Assembly (NCBI GenBank): GCA_031267235.1 | Contig: JAIRZM010000016.1 | Location: 1-33,566 of the forward strand | DNA from: Holosporaceae bacterium | GTDB taxonomy: Bacteria; Pseudomonadota; Alphaproteobacteria; UBA3830 | Reading direction: 5' to 3' | Length of the DNA: 33,566 bases | In this document: one piece after another, positions 4,324 to 30,251 of the stretch | Layout: each line of letters starts with the position of its first letter | Numbering within the stretch: the stretch's first letter is position 1 | The notes under the pieces: model-generated | What the model was told of the DNA's origin: nothing | The model's input: only the letters and a program-made list of their open reading frames with translations | Database searches by the model: none | Translations under genes and position numbers: made by a program

Positions 4324-6005
<1,682 letters not shown>

Positions 6006-7260: not shown

Positions 7261-7439
7261 ATGTAACTTTCTTAAATTTCTCTTAATATTCATTTTTTGA
7301 AGAAAAAAAATTTGTTCGACACTTTTGTCAGATCTCGGGCGTACTCCGTTTTCTCTAGATATTCAAAGGATTTCGATAATTCATTCCCGCTGATAAAAAC
7401 GCTGTTTTGATAATTGGGCACCTAATTCTTATGGACTCC

Positions 7440-7667: not shown

Positions 7668-8522
7668 TTACCCTTTTACGGATCCTGCCGTAAGTCCGGA
7701 AATAATTCGCCGCTGAAATATCATCACCAGCATAACCAGTGGAAGAGTAACCACAATGCTGGCAGCCATTATTAGCCCCCAGGGTAATTCGTGCTGGCTT
7801 GCCCCAGTAAATAGCGCCAACGATACGGGAACAGTTCTAGCTTGATTGGTCAGCGTGAATGTCAGAGCAAACAAAAATTCATTCCAGGCGGCTATGAACG
7901 CCAATAGTCCAGTGGTAACCACAGCCGGCTTTAATAGTGGAAAAAACACCTTCGTTAATATTAGGTACCTGGAAGCACCGTCCATTATGGCGGCCTCTTC
8001 GATTTCATTGGGAATGCTATTCATAAAATTCGTCATAATCCACAGAGTAAACGGCACAGTTATAATCATATATGACAGAATCAAGGCAGCCTTCTCATTG
8101 TATATGTCCAGAACTCTGATCAATTCAAACATTCCTGACAAAACGGCCACATAGGGCAATGTCGTTACGCTGAGAGCCGTCATCAGTACCCGTTTTCTTC
8201 CAGGAAATTTATGACGAGCCAAGGGATATGCCGCCAGAAGGCAAATCGCCAGCGTTAGCAGCGTTGTCAATAGAGCAACAATAACGGAATTTAAAAACGA
8301 GCTTCCGAATGTGGAGTCACCGAATACGCATCTATAATTTGCCCAGGTAATTTTTGAAGGCCAAAGTTCCGTGGAAAACAAATGTGTGCTATCCAGCAAA
8401 GAAGACACAATCGCCCAATAAAAAGGGAATAAGCAACAAATAGCAACAAGCGCACATAAGGCATAAAGCATTATGTTCTTTATGAATTTTTTGTATTTCC
8501 ATCTATTTTCTGCTTTAACCAT
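7668..8522 (-). CDS. sugar-type ABC transporter permease (MalG/UgpE-like)
   Basis: This 284-residue inner-membrane protein is a binding-protein-dependent permease of the CUT1 carbohydrate family. Six membrane helices are expected; the first is around residues 15-37. The cytoplasmic EAA loop that docks on the ATPase is clear (EEAAIMDGASRYLILTKVFF followed by PLLKP). The start lies five bases after the preceding permease gene. It is the last gene of an aspS-binding protein-permease-permease run. The substrate cannot be told from sequence; sugars or glycerol-3-phosphate are typical. No ATPase gene follows: instead there is a gene-free stretch with a mobile-element scar. Confidence 0.93.
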   Translation of the reverse strand: MVKAENRWKYKKFIKNIMLYALCALVAICCLFPFYWAIVSSLLDSTHLFSTELWPSKITWANYRCVFGDSTFGSSFLNSVIVALLTTLLTLAICLLAAYPLARHKFPGRKRVLMTALSVTTLPYVAVLSGMFELIRVLDIYNEKAALILSYMIITVPFTLWIMTNFMNSIPNEIEEAAIMDGASRYLILTKVFFPLLKPAVVTTGLLAFIAAWNEFLFALTFTLTNQARTVPVSLALFTGASQHELPWGLIMAASIVVTLPLVMLVMIFQRRIISGLTAGSVKG

Positions 8523-8527
8523 AATTT

Positions 8528-9436
8528 TTATCCGACGTTGTATAGTTTCTTTCTGTTAAATGACACATAGAATACGCTCAGAAAGGCGATAAAAAACAAT
8601 AAAGCTGTGGCAGCGGCCGATCCAAAGCCAACGTCGGCGTAATCCACCAAGTGCTTGCGAGCGTAGACGGACATTGTGGCATTGGCGCTGTTGCCACTGC
8701 TCAAAATATACACAAGATCGAAAATTCTTATGGCATCCAATGTTCGAAAAATCACAGCCACTATGATTGTTGGCTTCATTAGAGGAAGAATTATTTTGAC
8801 AAATGACTTTCCGAAGGGAATGCTATCCACTTCGGCAGCCTCGAAACAATCCTGTGGTAATCCCTGTAGGCCAGCCAGCAGGAGCAAGGCCATATAGGGA
8901 GTTGTTTTCCATACGTCCACCAAAATCATGGAAACAATGCTAAGACTACTGGAGGCAATCCAGGGAATCGGAGAATCAATGACGCCAGCCCTGAGCAGAA
9001 GTTCGTTGACGATGCCATAGACGTCATTCAACATCCAGGCCCACATGCGAGCCGAAACAATGGTAGGTATTGTCCATGGAATCAGTACAATCGCTCTCAT
9101 TAAGCCTCTTCCTCGGAAATTTCTATGAAGAATTAGGGCGATTATCATGCCAAGAATCGTTTCCATAGGAACCGAAACGAAAGCTATCAGGAATGTATTC
9201 AAAACCGCTTGCCACCAGTCTTGGTCCCTAGCCAACGAAATAAAATTCTCCACGCCTATGAAATTAATTTCCTTTAAATTATCTAAGGTCGCATCCGTAA
9301 AGCTAAAATATATGGTACGCAGCAGCGGCCATCCGGCTGACAGAACCAGCACCATTAAACAGGGAGCGAGGAAGATCCAATGGGAAAAATTCGATTTTTT
9401 TACCTTTCGCCCCAGCGGCGTGAAATTTATATGCAT
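8528..9436 (-). CDS. sugar-type ABC transporter permease (MalF/UgpA-like)
   Basis: This 302-residue protein is the partner permease. It has a hydrophobic first helix (HWIFLAPCLMVLVLSAGWPL), the periplasmic YFSFTDATL segment typical of MalF/UgpA proteins, and the EAA loop EAAEVDSIPFGKSFVKIILP followed by LMKP. Length fits the family without the extra N-terminal helices of E. coli MalF. Its ATG overlaps the stop of the binding-protein gene by one base (TGATG), so the two are translationally coupled. Together with the downstream permease it would form a heterodimeric channel. Confidence 0.93.
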   Translation of the reverse strand: MHINFTPLGRKVKKSNFSHWIFLAPCLMVLVLSAGWPLLRTIYFSFTDATLDNLKEINFIGVENFISLARDQDWWQAVLNTFLIAFVSVPMETILGMIIALILHRNFRGRGLMRAIVLIPWTIPTIVSARMWAWMLNDVYGIVNELLLRAGVIDSPIPWIASSSLSIVSMILVDVWKTTPYMALLLLAGLQGLPQDCFEAAEVDSIPFGKSFVKIILPLMKPTIIVAVIFRTLDAIRIFDLVYILSSGNSANATMSVYARKHLVDYADVGFGSAAATALLFFIAFLSVFYVSFNRKKLYNVG

Positions 9437-10824
9437 CAGTTCGACAATCCAAAAAACTTTTTGATTCTATACAAGAAACCTTCGCCCTTGGGGAGGCTAA
9501 CTTTTTTCTTTGAAACAGGAGGTGGCGATGTTTTTTCAAGAATTTTATTGAGCTTTCTCGCGAGACGATCAAGATATTTTTTTATGTCCTTCTCTTGGAA
9601 ATTTTCAGATTCGACACTCTCGGTAATGATGGTATTTATGGCATTAAATATCTCCGTGCTTGCTCTTTGATAGTTTTTCCCAAAAATCTTGGATGGCCTT
9701 GCGACGGAATTGCGCAAAGGCTTATACATATAACCGAGGAAAGGATTGTTTTCCAGCACCTTGGAGTCCCTATACAGACTTGCGCGCGCTGGCAAATAGG
9801 AAAACTCTGACCGAACTCTTTGCTGCTCTTTGCTGGTCATAAATTTAGCCAGATCAGCGGAAATATGCGGATGTTTGGAGTACTTTGAGACGGCCAGGGA
9901 CCATCCGCCCAATGTTCCGGACGGTTTGCCTCCTTTAGCAGATGGCGGAATCGGAATAACGCCAATTTTTCCAGCGACTTCCGCTGTTTGTTCATTCATT
10001 AAAGACCATGCATAGGGCCAATTGCGCATGAAAACTGAATTTCCCGATTGAAACAGTCCCCGAATCTCTTCGCCGGAATGATTGACGGCTCCACGATTAA
10101 TTATACTTCCGAAACTGTGGACCAAAAATTTGACAGCTTTCACGCATTCATTTGAATTAACAATAACTTTTCCGTCCTTTATGATCGCACCACCAAAGGA
10201 GTCTACTAGCTCCAGAAAGCTGCAAGTCAGCTCCTCAAAGGCTTTTGCTGGAAAACCAAGTCCATAGAACTTATTTCTCTTTAAAGGATCTTTTCTTTCC
10301 TCATTCTGAATGTATAGCGCGATTTCATGTAACTCTTCCCAGCTCTGGGGCACTGGCTTTCCGTATTTTTGCAGCAAGTCCGTTCTGTAATACATAACGC
10401 CGCAATCTGCGTACCACGGAAGAACAACAATTTTACCGTTGTGATAGATATGTTTTTTTATGACAGGAAAATAATCGCTAACATCCGCTTCTTCCTCGCT
10501 TAAAAACTCATCCAGTGGATGAAGATAGTCTGCCAACATGCCAATCCAGGCAAGATCCACCTGCAGAATATCAACGTCAAATGTTTCGGCGCTTAACCAT
10601 TGTAGATACAACGCAAGACATTCATTGCTAGCTCGCGGTAACGTTATAATTTCAACACTATGCTCGCCTTTGTAGCTCTTCATCCATTCTTTAGTTGCCT
10701 TTTCAATAAGCTCTGCCTCGCGTCCCTTCGCCTTGCAAGCAATTTTAATTGTCGCACAGTTTGCGTCGAAAAAACACAGGAAAGCCGCCGCAAAAACAGT
10801 CAACAATTTCAAATATATTTTCAT
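9436..10824 (-). CDS. extracellular solute-binding protein of the ABC importer
   Basis: The 462-residue product is a family 1 solute-binding protein of the kind that delivers sugars to MalFG-type permeases. The start MKIYLKLLTVFAAAFLCFF is chosen because AAGGA precedes it at good spacing and it begins a signal peptide; a frame extending to 10872 would run deep into aspS. The conserved PWYADCGVMYYRTDLLQKYG and GTLGGWSLAVSKYSKHP regions are typical. A cysteine follows the hydrophobic core (DANC), but the surrounding residues are not a proper lipobox, so a soluble periplasmic form is more likely. The Lys-rich C-terminal tail (about 30 residues after LNKILEKTSPPPV) is unusual for the family. The gene starts one base after aspS ends. 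Confidence 0.9.
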   Translation of the reverse strand: MKIYLKLLTVFAAAFLCFFDANCATIKIACKAKGREAELIEKATKEWMKSYKGEHSVEIITLPRASNECLALYLQWLSAETFDVDILQVDLAWIGMLADYLHPLDEFLSEEEADVSDYFPVIKKHIYHNGKIVVLPWYADCGVMYYRTDLLQKYGKPVPQSWEELHEIALYIQNEERKDPLKRNKFYGLGFPAKAFEELTCSFLELVDSFGGAIIKDGKVIVNSNECVKAVKFLVHSFGSIINRGAVNHSGEEIRGLFQSGNSVFMRNWPYAWSLMNEQTAEVAGKIGVIPIPPSAKGGKPSGTLGGWSLAVSKYSKHPHISADLAKFMTSKEQQRVRSEFSYLPARASLYRDSKVLENNPFLGYMYKPLRNSVARPSKIFGKNYQRASTEIFNAINTIITESVESENFQEKDIKKYLDRLARKLNKILEKTSPPPVSKKKVSLPKGEGFLYRIKKFFGLSN

Positions 10825-10825
10825 G

Positions 10826-12673
10826 CTAATCCTTTTTGGAGTCATTTTTAGACATATTTTTAGGCAAATCAAGCTTTAAGTGTAGTTCTTTCAATTGTTT
10901 TTCACTAACGTTGGATGGAGCATTCATCATCAAATCCTGAGCTTGCTGATTTAGAGGGAATGCAATAATTTCTCGAATGTTCGGCTCCTCCGCTATCAAC
11001 ATTACAATGCGATCTATCCCGGGAGCGCAACCACCGTGAGGCGGCGCGCCATACTGAAACGCATTGAACATGCCCTTAAATTTTTCCTGCGTAATTTTCG
11101 GATCGTAGCCAGCGATTTCGAACGCTTTCAGCATTACATCTGGCAAATGATTGCGAATTGCTCCACTGGACAGCTCTATTCCGTTGCATATGATGTCATA
11201 TTGGTAAGCCTTTATATCCAACGGATTCATATGTAGCAAAGTTTCCATTCCGCCCTGCGGCATTGAAAACGGATTGTGGGAAAATTCTAGAGCGCCAATA
11301 TCTTCATTAAATTCATACATGGGGAAATCCACAATCCAACAGAATTCAAACCCATCGGAGAATAATCTAAGGTCTGTTCCCAATTTTTGCCGCAGTAGGC
11401 CGGAAACTTTCTCCGCCTTTTTCTTTTGATCGCAGATGAAAAACACCGCTCCATTGCGGACTACAGCGTCGTTGTTTTCCGATTGTTCTGGTCGCTTCAG
11501 GGAGCTATGCGATGCAAACACGCGCTCCCTAAGTGTACGTAGCCGTTCTTGGTCTAGAAACTTTAGCAGCGGTCCTTTGGACTCTGCGCCGTCAAAAACT
11601 ATGTAGCCAAGCCCCGGTATTTCTTGCTCTTTGGCCCAGTCATTCAGCTTTTCAAAAAAACTACGCGACTGTTTTTCGATTCCAGCAACAGCAATGGCTC
11701 TCACAACGGCTCCATTTTTTATCATGTCTCTAAAGGCGGCAAAGGATGAATCCGCAAATATGTCGCTTACTTCGTGAATCATAAGTGGGTTTCGCAGATC
11801 AGGCTTGTCGCATCCATAGTGCAGCATAGCTTCATCGTAGGCAATTCGTCTAAAGGGATAGGCTGACACTGATTTTTTTGAAAATTCAATGAAAATATCA
11901 TGCACAACCGGCTCAATGGCAGCAAAAACATCCTCCTGCGTAACGAAGGACATCTCGAAGTCCAGCTGATAAAATTCGCCGGGAGATCTGTCGGCGCGAC
12001 TGTCTTCGTCCCTAAAGCATGGAGCAATCTGAAAGTATTTGTCAAAGCCAGCCACCATTAGCAGTTGTTTAAATTGTTGAGGCGCTTGCGGTAGAGCGTA
12101 AAACTGCCCCGGGTGCAGTCGACTTGGCACCAGGAAGTCCCGTGCTCCCTCCGGAGAGCTGGAAGTCAAAATAGGCGTACTAATCTCCAGAAATCCAGAC
12201 TTTTTCATTTTTTCTCGAATGCGAGCAATAATTTCCGAGCGTAGCACAATATTTCTATGAAGTTGCTCGCGGCGCAAATCCAAAAAACGGTATTTCAGAC
12301 GCGTTTCCTCCGATAAATCTGAGACGCTGCTGATGGACAGAGGAAGATTCTCCACATGAGAGAGTTCAATGAAATTTCCTATCTTGATTTCAATTGCTCC
12401 CGTTGAATTTTCATTGTTAACGGTATCTTCACTTCTTTTAACTACTGTTCCCTCGACTGTGACAATACATTCAAGACGAGTTTTTTCCACCGAAGAGAAG
12501 ATGGCGCTGCCGGAATCAACTACGCACTGAGTAATTCCGTAGTGGTCACGCAAATCAATGAAGAGCAGACTGCCGTGATCGCGCTTTCTATGGACCCAAC
12601 CAGACAATTTAACAGCCTTTCCTACGCTGGAACTGCGCAATTCTCCGCAATTATGGGATCTATATACATTCAT
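10826..12673 (-). CDS. aspS: aspartyl-tRNA synthetase, bacterial type
   Basis: The 615-residue enzyme charges tRNA-Asp (and in many alphaproteobacteria also tRNA-Asn) with aspartate. It has the N-terminal OB-fold anticodon-binding domain ([20 protein letters not shown]), class II motif 2 in the alphaproteobacterial form ([19 protein letters not shown]), the bacterial insertion domain, and motif 3 ([14 protein letters not shown]). GGAG lies at suitable spacing before the ATG. The ABC importer genes follow so closely that they are probably in the same transcript, an unusual pairing. Whether it discriminates tRNA-Asn depends on whether GatCAB or asparaginyl-tRNA synthetase exists elsewhere in the genome. 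Confidence 0.98.
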
Positions 12674-23827: not shown

Positions 23828-23950
23828 AGGATACATTTGGGCTGAAATCAGCCTAGTTCTATCATTGTGCTGGGAATTTGCGCAATCTTTACAAAATAGT
23901 AATCTTCAGCGAATAGGATCGAGGTATGTTTTTGTATTTAGGTGTGCCAA

Positions 23951-26197
23951 ATGCTAAAAAAACTTGTGTCCATCATAAAGACAACATTGTTGATGTGGGT
24001 ATGCGTCCTGGTTCCACTATTGATCGGGCTTAAGCTTGTAAAGTCATCTTCTAAAAAAGATATTGCCCAATGTGTTGATACTTTTATGCAGAGTGAAGGC
24101 GCTAATTTAGCAAAGTATGTAGCTTTACAGTTCGAGAGCACCCAAAAGGATCTGGACATTCTTATGTCAGAAATTCAATCATTGGATTTAACAAACAAGA
24201 AAGATACAAGCAAAAAACTAAAAAACTTCCTTAAGCAAAACAGCAACATAATTTCCATAAATTTGTACGATAGGGACGGGAAATTTTTGGCTAGCACCAA
24301 AAAAGGAGGAGAAACAGATCTGGAAAAGAGCGATAAACTAAAAACAATGGACGAAATCAACTATAGTATCGGACAGCGCGAAGATGGTCTCATTACCGTG
24401 GATTATATGGTATTACACAGTGCGCCAAACAAAAAAGAAAAGGAAGACGGATTCTATTTTGATATTACGGTTAAGTGGGATCAATACGAAAGATACATGA
24501 ACGAACTGCAAGAAGGAGCGTTTCCTCGGGTGTTTTATATAATTTCCCCCGATTGCAAACGCTATGTGGCGTTGAACTCTCTTCCTAAAGAGTCCCTAAA
24601 TGCCAGGGGAGTAGCGGCTCTTGGAATGCATCTTACCTCAAAAATTCAAAATATACCTGAGGGATTTTCGGATCAAGAAATAGAGTCTCTAGATTTTCGA
24701 GTTTTTAAAAGTGAAATAAAAATTCCGGAAACCATGAAGGGCAACAAGTTTTTTATCCTGGTGGCTACCGGTGACACTGCTTTGCGAATAGTAACAGATG
24801 GGATGTTTAGCAGCATGTCCACGGTAATCATAGTCATAATCATAATTTGGCTGGCATTCTGTATGTTAATCTCCAGATTTTATAACGCATCGCTGAGTCA
24901 GTTGGAAATAGCCAACACGATTACAGATTCTACTCCGCTAGCCACTGTTATCTTTAAGGCGTCGGACGGTAAAATTATGCGCATAAATCTTTCCGCCATA
25001 ACATTGCTCAGAATTGAAGAAAAAGACATAAAAACGGCAAATATATGGAATCTTTTCATATCAGAACGCGATAGAGATTACATAGCTAGCGCTATCCCGT
25101 CCAATATTAACGTGATGAATTATGAGGTTTTACTCCAGAGCTTTGGTGGTGGAAGCTTCTGGGGCATATGTTCAGCCAGTCCAGTGGATATAGACGATGA
25201 AAGACACGTTGTATTAGCAGTTCTGGACATTAACCGACGCAAGGAAATCGAGAAAAAATTAGCCAACAACGCTGAACTTCTGGAGAAACAAGTGTTGGAA
25301 CGAACTACAGACTTGGAAACCAAGGCGAAACAATTGGAAGAGTCAAATTCTCTATTGGAGAAGACTCAAAAAGTCGCCAACGAAGCGAACGAAGCCAAGA
25401 GCAAATTCTTGACCAATGTTAGCAGTGAGCTCAAAACTCCCATCAATGCCATCATTGGATATGGAGAAATTCTCCAGGAAGAAGCGCTGGACAGAAAAGA
25501 CACTGTTTCCGCCGATGATCTTCGTAAAATTATTGGTTCGGCAAAGCATTTGCTATCTCTGGTGGATGAAATTTTAGATTTGTCCAAGATTGAGGCCGGC
25601 AAAGTTCAATTATTCTTTGAAAATGTGGATGTTCATAGCATAATTAAAGATGTTGAAGGCGTCACCATGCCTTTAATTGCCAAAAACGATAACTCGCTCT
25701 TTTTAGAATATCCGAAAAACATCGGCGTTATGTATACGGACGCTTTAAAACTTAGACAATGCCTTCTTAATTTACTAAGCAACGCAGCGAAATTTACGGA
25801 ATTTGGCAAGATAACGCTAAAAGCTTCCGCTGTGGTGAAGCAGGGCATTGATTACATAGAATTTTCCATTATAGATAGCGGAATAGGCATAGATCCTGAC
25901 AGAATAAACAGCATATTCGATCCGTTTCAGGACAGTGGCACAAAGAAATCAGGAGCCGGTCTTGGATTGTCAATTACTAAAAGATACGTAGAATTACTGG
26001 AGGGTACGGTTACAGCCGAAAGCGAAAGTGGAGTAGGATCTAAATTTTCCATGAGAATTCCGAGAATATGCACGGTAGAAGCCAATGAGTTCATCGAGAT
26101 AAAGAACCAGTCCAGCGATGAAATTCTGGAGGAATTCAAGGAAGAAAATGTTGCAGAAGTAGTTGTTCCGGCTGTGGAAGAACCTGAACTGTCATAA
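23951..26197 (+). CDS. membrane sensor kinase-like protein lacking the phosphoacceptor His
   Basis: The 748-residue protein has a membrane helix at about 9-28, a periplasmic sensor region to about 290, a second helix (STVIIVIIIIWLAFCMLI), a PAS-like domain at about 317-428, a coiled coil, and the HisKA and HATPase domains of a histidine kinase. The ATP site looks intact: N box LLNLLSNAAKF, G1 DSGIGI, F box IFDPF, G2 GAGLGLSI. The H box, normally SHELRTP, reads SSELKTP, so the phosphorylated histidine is serine (Ser492, codon AGT at 25424-25426). It should not autophosphorylate in the usual way. DivL of Caulobacter, with tyrosine there, is a known parallel. The start is ATG with TTAGGTG upstream; GTG 23942 is an alternative. 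An acidic 40-residue tail follows the HATPase domain. No response regulator adjoins it. Confidence 0.92.
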   Translation: MLKKLVSIIKTTLLMWVCVLVPLLIGLKLVKSSSKKDIAQCVDTFMQSEGANLAKYVALQFESTQKDLDILMSEIQSLDLTNKKDTSKKLKNFLKQNSNIISINLYDRDGKFLASTKKGGETDLEKSDKLKTMDEINYSIGQREDGLITVDYMVLHSAPNKKEKEDGFYFDITVKWDQYERYMNELQEGAFPRVFYIISPDCKRYVALNSLPKESLNARGVAALGMHLTSKIQNIPEGFSDQEIESLDFRVFKSEIKIPETMKGNKFFILVATGDTALRIVTDGMFSSMSTVIIVIIIIWLAFCMLISRFYNASLSQLEIANTITDSTPLATVIFKASDGKIMRINLSAITLLRIEEKDIKTANIWNLFISERDRDYIASAIPSNINVMNYEVLLQSFGGGSFWGICSASPVDIDDERHVVLAVLDINRRKEIEKKLANNAELLEKQVLERTTDLETKAKQLEESNSLLEKTQKVANEANEAKSKFLTNVSSELKTPINAIIGYGEILQEEALDRKDTVSADDLRKIIGSAKHLLSLVDEILDLSKIEAGKVQLFFENVDVHSIIKDVEGVTMPLIAKNDNSLFLEYPKNIGVMYTDALKLRQCLLNLLSNAAKFTEFGKITLKASAVVKQGIDYIEFSIIDSGIGIDPDRINSIFDPFQDSGTKKSGAGLGLSITKRYVELLEGTVTAESESGVGSKFSMRIPRICTVEANEFIEIKNQSSDEILEEFKEENVAEVVVPAVEEPELS

Positions 26198-27887: not shown

Positions 27888-30251
27888 TTAAACCGTTGAG
27901 CTCTTTGCTGCTTTTTTCTTCTTTTTGGAAGACTTTTTAGCGGTGCTGGTGATCTTGCCGCTATCGTTGGTGGTAGCAGTCGACTGGGAAGGTTGGGTTG
28001 TTGCCGGCGTTGTTGCCGCTGGCGTTGCCGCCGCAGTTGTTGCTGGCGTTGCCGCCGCAGTTGCTGCTGGCGTTGTTGCCGCAGTTTCCGCTGGCGTTGA
28101 GGAAACTTTATTCTTTAGGCCAGAGATTGCTGACTTAGCTACGTTTGCAATACTAGAAAAAAATCCCGAACTACTGGCCGCACTTTTTCCTGCAGCAAGA
28201 GCTTCTTCAGAAGTTTTTGCCGGCACAAATGCTCCGAGTGAATTTTTTATATACCCAAATATTCCAGATGGCAATGATCCCAAAGGAACAAGATTGCCGG
28301 CAGCGTCCAATACCATTTGTTGAGCAGGCTGAGTAGCATTGGCGGATGCGATTCCGGTTGTTCCAACTCCTGCAAATGAAGGAGCGGTAGTGGCACTAAC
28401 TGGCGATGTAGCGACAGCCGGAGCGGCTGCAGTTGTAGCCGTAACAAGTTGTCCAGTTACTGGATCTTTCGTGTATCCGAATGATCCTGGCGGCAAAGAG
28501 CTTAGGGGAACCAATTGCCCGGATGCATTTAATACCATTTGAGAGCCGGATGCTTTCGTAGTTGTGGTTGTTATGGTGGTCGTAGTCCCCGATGGATTTC
28601 CTCCGGACGCAATTGTAGAATTGCCTGCCGGTCCAGCTCCAGGCAAAGGAGCAGGAATCATTTGGCCATTGGCATCTCTTATGTAGCCATTTAAAGCTGC
28701 ATTTCCCATCAATGAACCTAGAGGAACCATGTTGCCATTGGAATTCATTCCCATTTGATTACCATTCGGATTGTTCACGCCTGCTCCAAATGTGTTTCCA
28801 TATGAATTTTGCCCATTACCGCCATTCATAGCATTCACGAGTCCGCCTATACTACTTTCCTTGCCGTCCAATACAGCGCCAATTTCTTCCATAGCGCCTC
28901 TTTCTCTAGCGACATATCCGTTGCCATACACGCCTCCACCGTATCCCATCGGATGCATTCCGTTGTTGTAGGCATTGCCTTGCGCACCAAAAACGTCGCC
29001 GGAAGGCATTTGGTTCATTTTTAATCTTTCGAAACAAATGTTGCATATCCCCCAATCATCTTGTCCGCCTATAACATGTACAGTTTTATTCGCTTTGCAG
29101 TGCACACATATTCCAGTTCTGGTATCTCCAAGAGTCAAAGAAGCTAGTTTTGATTCGTCTATCAATCCAAGCTGTCGCAGATATCTAATAGTTTCTTCCG
29201 TTGTTTCTTGAACAATGACCTTCTCGCTAGAAAAATTTCCTCCTTGATAATTGTTTCCAGCGCTGCCCATCATCTGAAGATTGTTTCCTGCCGTTCCAAA
29301 TGCATTTTGCTGTCCAGATTGAAACCCAGACTGTTGTCCATATGGGAGATTCTGCATTCCTCCATTATTATAGTTCTGTTGATACTGATTTTGCCCCAAG
29401 CTGGACTGCGAATATTGAGCGTTATTAGAGCCATAATTAGAGAACTGATTCTGTCCAAAGCCGGACTGCGAATACTGATTCTGTTCACCGTTGGGCGTTT
29501 GCTGATTGCTGTGCACTTCGGTAGTGGTCGTTTGAGTGAATGTTTCGGGAGAATTGCTATTTGCTAAGTGGTTCGGCGCTGCGGATAGTGAATTTAGGTT
29601 TTGCGTGCTTGTGGGTGAGGGCATGGAAAATGACGAAGTTAAATTGGGTATGCCTGTTGATGATGGCGGCGCAGGGAAGCTTGATATACCAACTGACGGC
29701 ATAGATGGCGAGTTTGGCATGTTATTGATTGGTGTTATAAGCGAATTTGGCATGTTATTGATTGGTGTTACTTGTGTTGTAGGCGCTTGATTGACCATTG
29801 GTGGTGGCTGTTGATTTGGCGCTAATTTTCCCAAAAGTTCACCGAGATCTAGCTTGATGGTAATAAGTTTTTCTGAGGATGCTTCATCGCCTCTTTTTTC
29901 TGATTTTTTCCTAGATTCCCCACGAGAATCTTCGCCGCCTTTGGCCCTGTTTCTTTCGGAAAAAAAGTTGTTTTCCCCATCTAGTCCATCTACGTAAAAG
30001 TTTATTCTCTCCTTTTCTTCATCGTCCTCATCATCCTCGTCGTCGTCTTCATCGTCGTCATCGTAATAATCTTTATGTTTTTTTTTAGCTTTTATAGCAG
30101 CACTAGAAGAATCGTCAACATGGACGTAATTTTCATGTTTTTTTTTAACTTTTTTAGCAGCAGACGAAGAAATATCAAGACTGCCAAAGGAGAATTCTAT
30201 GATTGAAATGCCGCAAAACGAAAACAACAGCAGCAATAGGAAAACACGCAT
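27888..30251 (-). CDS. large exported Q/N-rich protein with a four-cysteine motif
   Basis: I do not recognise this 787-residue protein. Visible parts in order: a signal peptide (MRVFLLLLLFSFCGISIIEF); two copies of a 20-residue Lys-rich repeat (28-67); an acidic run (63-81); a Pro/Asn/Ser-rich stretch (145-235); a Gln/Asn/Tyr/Gly-rich, prion-like stretch (248-340); a short folded-looking segment with C382-x2-C385-x17-C403-x2-C406 (CVHC and CNIC), resembling a zinc ribbon or a redox pair; a Gly/Asn-rich stretch; three imperfect copies of a unit containing GxxVPLxSL followed by GY (about 500-535, 571-603, 645-678); an Ala/Thr/Pro tail; and a Lys-rich end. The composition suggests a surface or secreted protein. 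It sits between an LpoA-like gene and lnt on the same strand. Function unknown. Confidence 0.8.
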   Translation of the reverse strand: MRVFLLLLLFSFCGISIIEFSFGSLDISSSAAKKVKKKHENYVHVDDSSSAAIKAKKKHKDYYDDDDEDDDEDDEDDEEKERINFYVDGLDGENNFFSERNRAKGGEDSRGESRKKSEKRGDEASSEKLITIKLDLGELLGKLAPNQQPPPMVNQAPTTQVTPINNMPNSLITPINNMPNSPSMPSVGISSFPAPPSSTGIPNLTSSFSMPSPTSTQNLNSLSAAPNHLANSNSPETFTQTTTTEVHSNQQTPNGEQNQYSQSGFGQNQFSNYGSNNAQYSQSSLGQNQYQQNYNNGGMQNLPYGQQSGFQSGQQNAFGTAGNNLQMMGSAGNNYQGGNFSSEKVIVQETTEETIRYLRQLGLIDESKLASLTLGDTRTGICVHCKANKTVHVIGGQDDWGICNICFERLKMNQMPSGDVFGAQGNAYNNGMHPMGYGGGVYGNGYVARERGAMEEIGAVLDGKESSIGGLVNAMNGGNGQNSYGNTFGAGVNNPNGNQMGMNSNGNMVPLGSLMGNAALNGYIRDANGQMIPAPLPGAGPAGNSTIASGGNPSGTTTTITTTTTKASGSQMVLNASGQLVPLSSLPPGSFGYTKDPVTGQLVTATTAAAPAVATSPVSATTAPSFAGVGTTGIASANATQPAQQMVLDAAGNLVPLGSLPSGIFGYIKNSLGAFVPAKTSEEALAAGKSAASSSGFFSSIANVAKSAISGLKNKVSSTPAETAATTPAATAAATPATTAAATPAATTPATTQPSQSTATTNDSGKITSTAKKSSKKKKKAAKSSTV
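28018..28098. repeat. 24-bp tandem repeat inside the Q/N-rich protein gene
   Basis: Three units of 24 bases (28018-28041, 28042-28065, 28066-28089), beginning GCTGGCGTTG, and a partial fourth encode the Ala/Thr/Pro tail. The first two differ at two positions and the third is more diverged. Copy number may vary by slippage between strains. Confidence 0.85.
29708..29773. repeat. 33-bp direct duplication inside the Q/N-rich protein gene
   Basis: Two nearly identical 33-base units (29708-29740 and 29741-29773) share TTTGGCATGTTATTGATTGG and encode two copies of TPINNMPNS. The near identity points to a recent duplication. Confidence 0.85.

Follow-up and report, generated by a model that had tools for sequence, protein, structure and literature searches.

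A putative family-wide sensor pseudo-histidine kinase and parallel losses of phosphorylation sites in one family of Alphaproteobacteria

Location and domain architecture of the sensor kinase gene

The window, that is, the whole stretch of 33,566 nucleotides that was analysed, contains on its forward strand a frame (23942-26197) that is open over its whole length and encodes a putative sensor pseudo-histidine kinase. The start of this gene (the window gene) is probably the ATG at 23951, based on homology and on an upstream AGGTG; the alternative start of the longest frame is a GTG at 23942. The intact protein has 748-751 amino acids and is composed of Cache-like, PAS, HisKA and HATPase regions. 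The features of the gene are as follows.

23951..26197, + strand: coding sequence of the putative sensor pseudo-histidine kinase; open frame, same starting Met in the orthologues
23940..23944, + strand: putative Shine-Dalgarno-like AGGTG, 6 bases upstream of the ATG at 23951
23981..24040, + strand: predicted transmembrane helix 1, amino acids about 14-33 (hydrophobic; part of a modelled helix, 2-79)
24044..24814, + strand: predicted extracytoplasmic Cache-like sensor region, amino acids about 35-291 (dCache_1 below cut-off, E 0.002)
24815..24871, + strand: predicted transmembrane helix 2, amino acids about 292-310 (hydrophobic; part of a modelled helix, 278-330)
24947..25231, + strand: PAS domain, amino acids 336-430 (PF13426, 5e-8)
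25394..25600, + strand: HisKA/DHp domain without phosphoacceptor His, amino acids 485-553 (PF00512, 7e-16)
25424-25426, + strand: Ser495, codon AGT, at the phosphoacceptor position; N, V, I or T in orthologues, never His
25427..25438, + strand: E496-L-K-T499, the E-x-x-T that comes after the absent His, with no variation in E, K or T across a 28-row alignment (A1)
25739..26062, + strand: HATPase_c/CA domain, amino acids 600-707 (PF02518, 4e-25)

Both HisKA and HATPase_c pass their Pfam cut-offs in a single open frame, so the protein has the fold of a HisKA-type histidine kinase. In the predicted structure model (pLDDT 76.5, pTM 0.41; usable only for the match of the core) the sensor region is a mixed strand/helix fold. 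No CtrA site (TTAA-N7-TTAA) is found upstream of the gene, the one match, at 7272, being at chance level. Outside the genus, the flanking genes are not kept beside the orthologues.

Other features of the window are also worth recording. On the minus strand, 27888-30251 encodes a low-complexity protein of 787 amino acids, acidic, Asn/Gln/Gly- and Ala/Thr-rich and without a Pfam match; its tandem repeats lie at 28000-28099 and at 29708-29770. The ATP synthase epsilon-like frame directly 3' of the beta subunit (5742-6005, + strand) looks short, at just 87 amino acids. A sugar-type ABC transporter (solute-binding protein and two permeases) is present at 7668-10872 on the minus strand, in a genome of 0.7 Mb.

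Absence of the phosphoacceptor histidine and conservation of the protein

The H-box of the protein is FLTNVSSELKTP (NVSSELKTP). An earlier sequence-only reading of the window had reported this serine in place of the histidine and had judged a read error unlikely, and both statements are borne out: a second MAG, of another species and with a protein 85% identical, has Ser at the same site encoded by TCC, whereas a third MAG has AAC (Asn). Since the two Ser codons differ between independent MAGs, an assembly error is rejected.

We searched 61 genomes and the GTDB contig collection for orthologues. Almost every genome of a single taxonomic family (f1) has one, at 48-85% identity, and the domain architecture hardly ever differs between these genomes. 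The members of f1 are gut MAGs labelled 'Holosporaceae bacterium', 'Alphaproteobacteria bacterium' or 'uncultured proteobacterium', several of which come from rumen, cecum or omasum; others carry isolate codes that we take to resemble those of termite-gut MAGs. A review of the Holosporales mentions an uncharacterised gut clade, found particularly in termites (PMC11909080), which may or may not correspond to f1.

Among 36 tabulated orthologues, including the window protein, the acceptor residue is Asn in 27, Val in five, Ser in two, Ile in one and Thr in one. Histidine at this site, which would have spoken against the sequence-only reading, is absent from all of the at least 36 f1 orthologues examined and from the aligned set (0/28). 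It is present in every homologue that was read from outside f1, a set that ranges from Gemmatimonadetes to Methylobacterium and includes the sister family f3. The phosphoacceptor is missing from 0.9% of HisKA domains (His) and 2.0% of receivers (Asp) (PMC12632262), and against the former base rate its absence from every orthologue is not due to chance. The idea of a distinct serine version did not survive the alignment: Asn is the usual residue of the family, with Val, Ile and Thr as alternatives, and Ser, in 2/36, is not fixed at a site that is free to vary. Ser as a new fixed acceptor was rejected for the same reason, as position 495 varies. No report of a family-wide loss of the histidine was found in the open-access literature, subscription papers lying outside that search.

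The rest of the protein is strongly conserved. Between congeners, dN/dS is 0.05-0.07 for the whole protein and 0.008-0.023 for HisKA, values that are rough because dS is mostly >1; identity is 97-100% in HisKA vs 75-80% in the sensor. In alignment A1 conservation is highest in the HisKA domain (entropy 0.42; CA 0.96, sensor 1.83), and the variable acceptor site (entropy 1.23) is flanked by the invariant S494 and E496. T499, which is the HisKA phosphatase residue (Thr/Asn at H+4), is present in 28/28 sequences. Almost invariant is the DHp hairpin (EEAxDRKDxVSxDDLxKI), which adjoins the surface that contacts the response regulator in other kinases. H536 is invariant and is also present in the His-bearing relatives. 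Concerning the CA domain, the N, G1, F and G2 boxes are represented by the invariant residues N610, N614, D645, G647, G649, F659 and GLGL (673-676).

Compared with a functional histidine kinase, the protein thus lacks the acceptor His and has all four ATP-site boxes. As judged from its sequence, it is unable to phosphorylate itself on the canonical His, and it is under strong purifying selection without any need of that residue. The earlier description of an intact, non-decaying sensor pseudokinase with an open frame therefore agrees with the invariant boxes and a dN/dS of about 0.05, and the alignments identify the protein as a family-wide pseudo-histidine-kinase that is selected and is neither a product of decay nor of error. 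Sequencing error or a pseudogene was rejected on the independent Ser MAG with the other codon and on the purifying selection.

Kinase relationships and parallel phosphosite losses

The sequence-only reading had also placed the protein in a possible PleC/DivJ/DivL-type network. When 90 DHp-CA cores are placed in a tree, the window protein and its orthologues (the window clade) group together (100) among hybrid-type kinases that have the His. The DivJ-like kinases group separately, and Caulobacter DivL (4Q20) is joined by the f1 DivL-like proteins (84, long branches). In an AU test on a reduced set of 33 rows, a grouping of the window clade with the DivJ-like kinases is not rejected (p 0.61), so the tree is not decisive on this kinship. 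The FG-x-L hairpin is found in 19/24 DivJ-like and 8/8 f1 DivL-like proteins vs 0/15 of the window clade and 0/22 of the hybrid-type kinases; it is missing from Caulobacter DivL too. The model scores of the window protein are 100 bits for DivJ vs 208 bits for TorS. Concerning DivL itself, the window protein has no Tyr at the acceptor position and does not form a clade with Caulobacter DivL. A core of the PleC/DivJ/DivL type is thus not supported by the motif, although the tree leaves room for it. The part of the proposal that fared better is the presence of such a network in the relatives, which hold DivL-like, DivK-like and PleD-like proteins, with their phosphosites lost. The proteins concerned are listed below with the loci at which they were read.

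L164, 1-1905, + strand; also L217-L246: DivL-like protein, degenerate G2 box (GISM for GLGL)
L141/L139, 1453-1860, - strand; also L184-L213: DivK-like single-domain receiver, overlaps pleD
L141, 189-1475, - strand; also L184-L213: PleD-like protein, best PDB match PleD
L136, 1459-2685, + strand; also L247-L276: REC-HisKA-HATPase protein (REC-HK), in 32/41 f1 genomes
L338, 1676-2140, - strand: DivK-like receiver of the sister family f2, Asp kept, acidic pocket lost; possible intermediate stage

The DivL-like protein is a separate protein, found in 34/41 f1 genomes (best PDB match DivL), and has T, I, V, L or A at the acceptor site in 30/30 sequences (His or Tyr in 0/30). The divK-pleD pair has overlapping frames; a PleD-like protein is present in 37/41 genomes and a DivK-like one in 35/41. 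The identity of the latter is based on homology and the divK-pleD order, and its best PDB match is DivK (1m5t, E 1.5e-9); its structure model is moderate (pLDDT 70), with Foldseek matches to generic receivers only. It has Asn for the phospho-Asp (29/29 read and 28/28), the E-D pocket is mostly E-Q/K, and Lys and Ser are kept. In the PleD-like protein, receiver 1 is without Asp (Asp 0/29), while GGDEF and the RxxD I-site are intact; judging by these residues, it is probably a diguanylate cyclase uncoupled from phosphorylation. REC-HK has inactive residues at both sites (Asn in the receiver, 30/30; Gln, Asn or Arg for His, 30/30), and is kept at 49-72% identity. As to the controls, CtrA, NtrX, NtrY and ChpT keep their phosphosites, and CckA keeps His and Asp wherever the motif was read.

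The Asp is lost from the PleD-like receiver of f2 as well. Together with the lost pocket of its DivK-like receiver, this pattern suggests that erosion had already set in at an earlier stage and ran to completion in f1. In the 95% complete genome G001, six sensor kinases were found, of which three are without His. Four further loci (L151, L154, L169 and L170) encode PAS-kinase-REC hybrids whose N-terminal domain is unusual; their H-boxes, of which AHDxxSPLxSL is an example, have the His intact.

The window's own MAG (80% complete) contains CckA, one further receiver protein and a CpaE-like pseudo-receiver; it shows no DivK, PleD, DivL or ChpT match and no CtrA-type receiver. As no genes of the module are seen there, the link of the window protein to DivL-DivK-PleD comes from the relatives, and we infer a tie to the DivK module through shared fate alone. 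All these genes are near-universal in f1, so their co-occurrence has little power.

Possible mode of action and comparison with known systems

On balance we lean towards the explanation that the protein is an orphan membrane pseudokinase whose docking to a partner depends on ligand and ATP and which modulates CckA-ChpT-CtrA in this way. The signal would enter at the periplasmic Cache-like domain and reach the DHp bundle by way of the PAS domain and the coiled coil; the response regulator-docking hairpin of DHp, set by the binding of ATP to the CA domain, would then bind or release the partner. Candidate partners are the DivK-like pseudo-receiver with Asn for Asp and, as direct targets, CckA and CtrA. 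The intact CckA-ChpT-CtrA relay would then be modulated by protein contact and not by phosphotransfer, as with DivL, which binds DivK~P and has neither kinase nor phosphatase activity (PMC4211667), and with Osp, which is receiver-like and inhibits CckA without being phosphorylated (PMC9430884). The loss of His, the selection, the near-invariant hairpin, the intact ATP boxes, the parallel losses and the intact controls count for docking. Against it count the invariant T499, since pure docking needs no phosphatase residue, the invariant E496, which is unexplained (in CrdS it serves kinase activity only), the fact that no partner and no neighbour conserved outside the genus were identified, and the lack of DivK, PleD, DivL, ChpT and CtrA-type matches in the window's own MAG.

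The invariance of T499, together with the phosphatase activity of a His-less CrdS, makes phosphatase-only action the main rival. Through T499 and the ATP-bound CA domain, the protein would strip phosphate from an Asp-bearing receiver (CtrA, NtrX, the receiver of CckA or another). This would fit the intact ATP site and the E-x-K-T-P frame around T499, which is invariant in the 28-row alignment, and the H-to-A form of the HisKA kinase CrdS (H371A) retains strong phosphatase activity, for which the Thr/Asn is needed (PMC3510030). However, it too leaves E496 unexplained, the neighbourhood of the window gene yielded no cognate receiver, and a survey argues against such activity as the general role of pseudo-histidine-kinases (PMC12632262); we regard it as unlikely, though by no means negligible.

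ATP-site boxes that stay intact after the loss of the protein's own His would also suit action in trans, in a heterodimer with a His-bearing kinase whose His would be phosphorylated or blocked by the CA domain of the window protein. That sensor kinases can interact and modify one another's activity is well known (PMC5992135), but the window's own genome shows no His-bearing kinase with a similar DHp, only CckA, which is of a distant DHp class, and this mode appears improbable. Transfer of the phosphate to Ser, Thr or Asn495 or to a nearby His is harder still to credit: Ser or Thr occurs in 3/36 tabulated orthologues, but the six with Val or Ile exclude a fixed new acceptor at 495, and the invariant H536 is common to His-bearing relatives and so is no new gain. 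Equally implausible is the decay of a kinase that is being lost in a reducing genome. The genome is small, His is lost and the copies of two relatives have an internal stop; nevertheless, dN/dS is about 0.05, the architecture is the same in nearly all f1 genomes and the ATP-site boxes are invariant.

The acceptor losses in the window pseudokinase and in several likely network neighbours indicate that this branch of the signalling network probably runs without phosphorylation. Tentatively, and with less confidence than for docking itself, we suggest that the branch above CckA-ChpT-CtrA (window pseudokinase, DivL, DivK, PleD and REC-HK) could be a phosphorylation-free network of pseudokinases and pseudo-receivers, working by ligand- and ATP-gated contacts and c-di-GMP, with the core relay as a true phosphorelay. 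At least five two-component proteins in these small genomes have lost His or Asp family-wide and are yet conserved, in contrast to base rates of 0.9% (HisKA) and 2% (receivers). The family f1 would thus be a natural experiment on the DivL/DivK/PleD logic without phosphorylation, its output relay CckA-ChpT-CtrA being apparently intact. This signalling branch stripped of phosphosites is the broader finding, and of more interest than the Ser codon.

Several known systems resemble parts of this arrangement. RetS of Pseudomonas carries receivers, acts on GacS and controls another kinase by contact. Its sensor kinase core structures (PDB 6DK7/6DK8) match the profile of the window family; a RetS-like partner for the window protein was not identified here. 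Osp of Rhodobacter sphaeroides, like the DivK-like protein of f1, is a receiver-like single-domain protein, and acts unphosphorylated on CckA (PMC9430884); Osp keeps the Asp and is without the acidic pocket and Lys, whereas the f1 protein keeps Lys and Ser and has Asn for Asp. PleC, DivJ and PdhS are, like the window protein, HisKA and HATPase sensor kinases of Alphaproteobacteria; unlike them, the window protein has neither the His nor the FG-x-L hairpin. The nearest DHp-CA cores, up to 49% identical, are those of His-bearing hybrid-type kinases (Gemmatimonadetes L073/L074 and Bauldia L077), which share a similar hairpin and a KHLLxLIxxILDLSKIEAG-type second helix; they differ in having the His, and the likeness is limited to the C-terminal core. 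Caulobacter DivL (PDB 4Q20) is likewise a PAS sensor pseudokinase, with a HisKA domain without His, a conserved docking surface and a CA domain, and the predicted model of the core of the window protein matches it at fold level (30% identity, target TM 0.63). DivL differs in that it has Tyr at the acceptor site and several PAS domains. The window protein keeps the Thr used for phosphatase activity and the full G2 box; in the f1 DivL-like proteins this Thr is replaced by E, D or G and the G2 box is broken.
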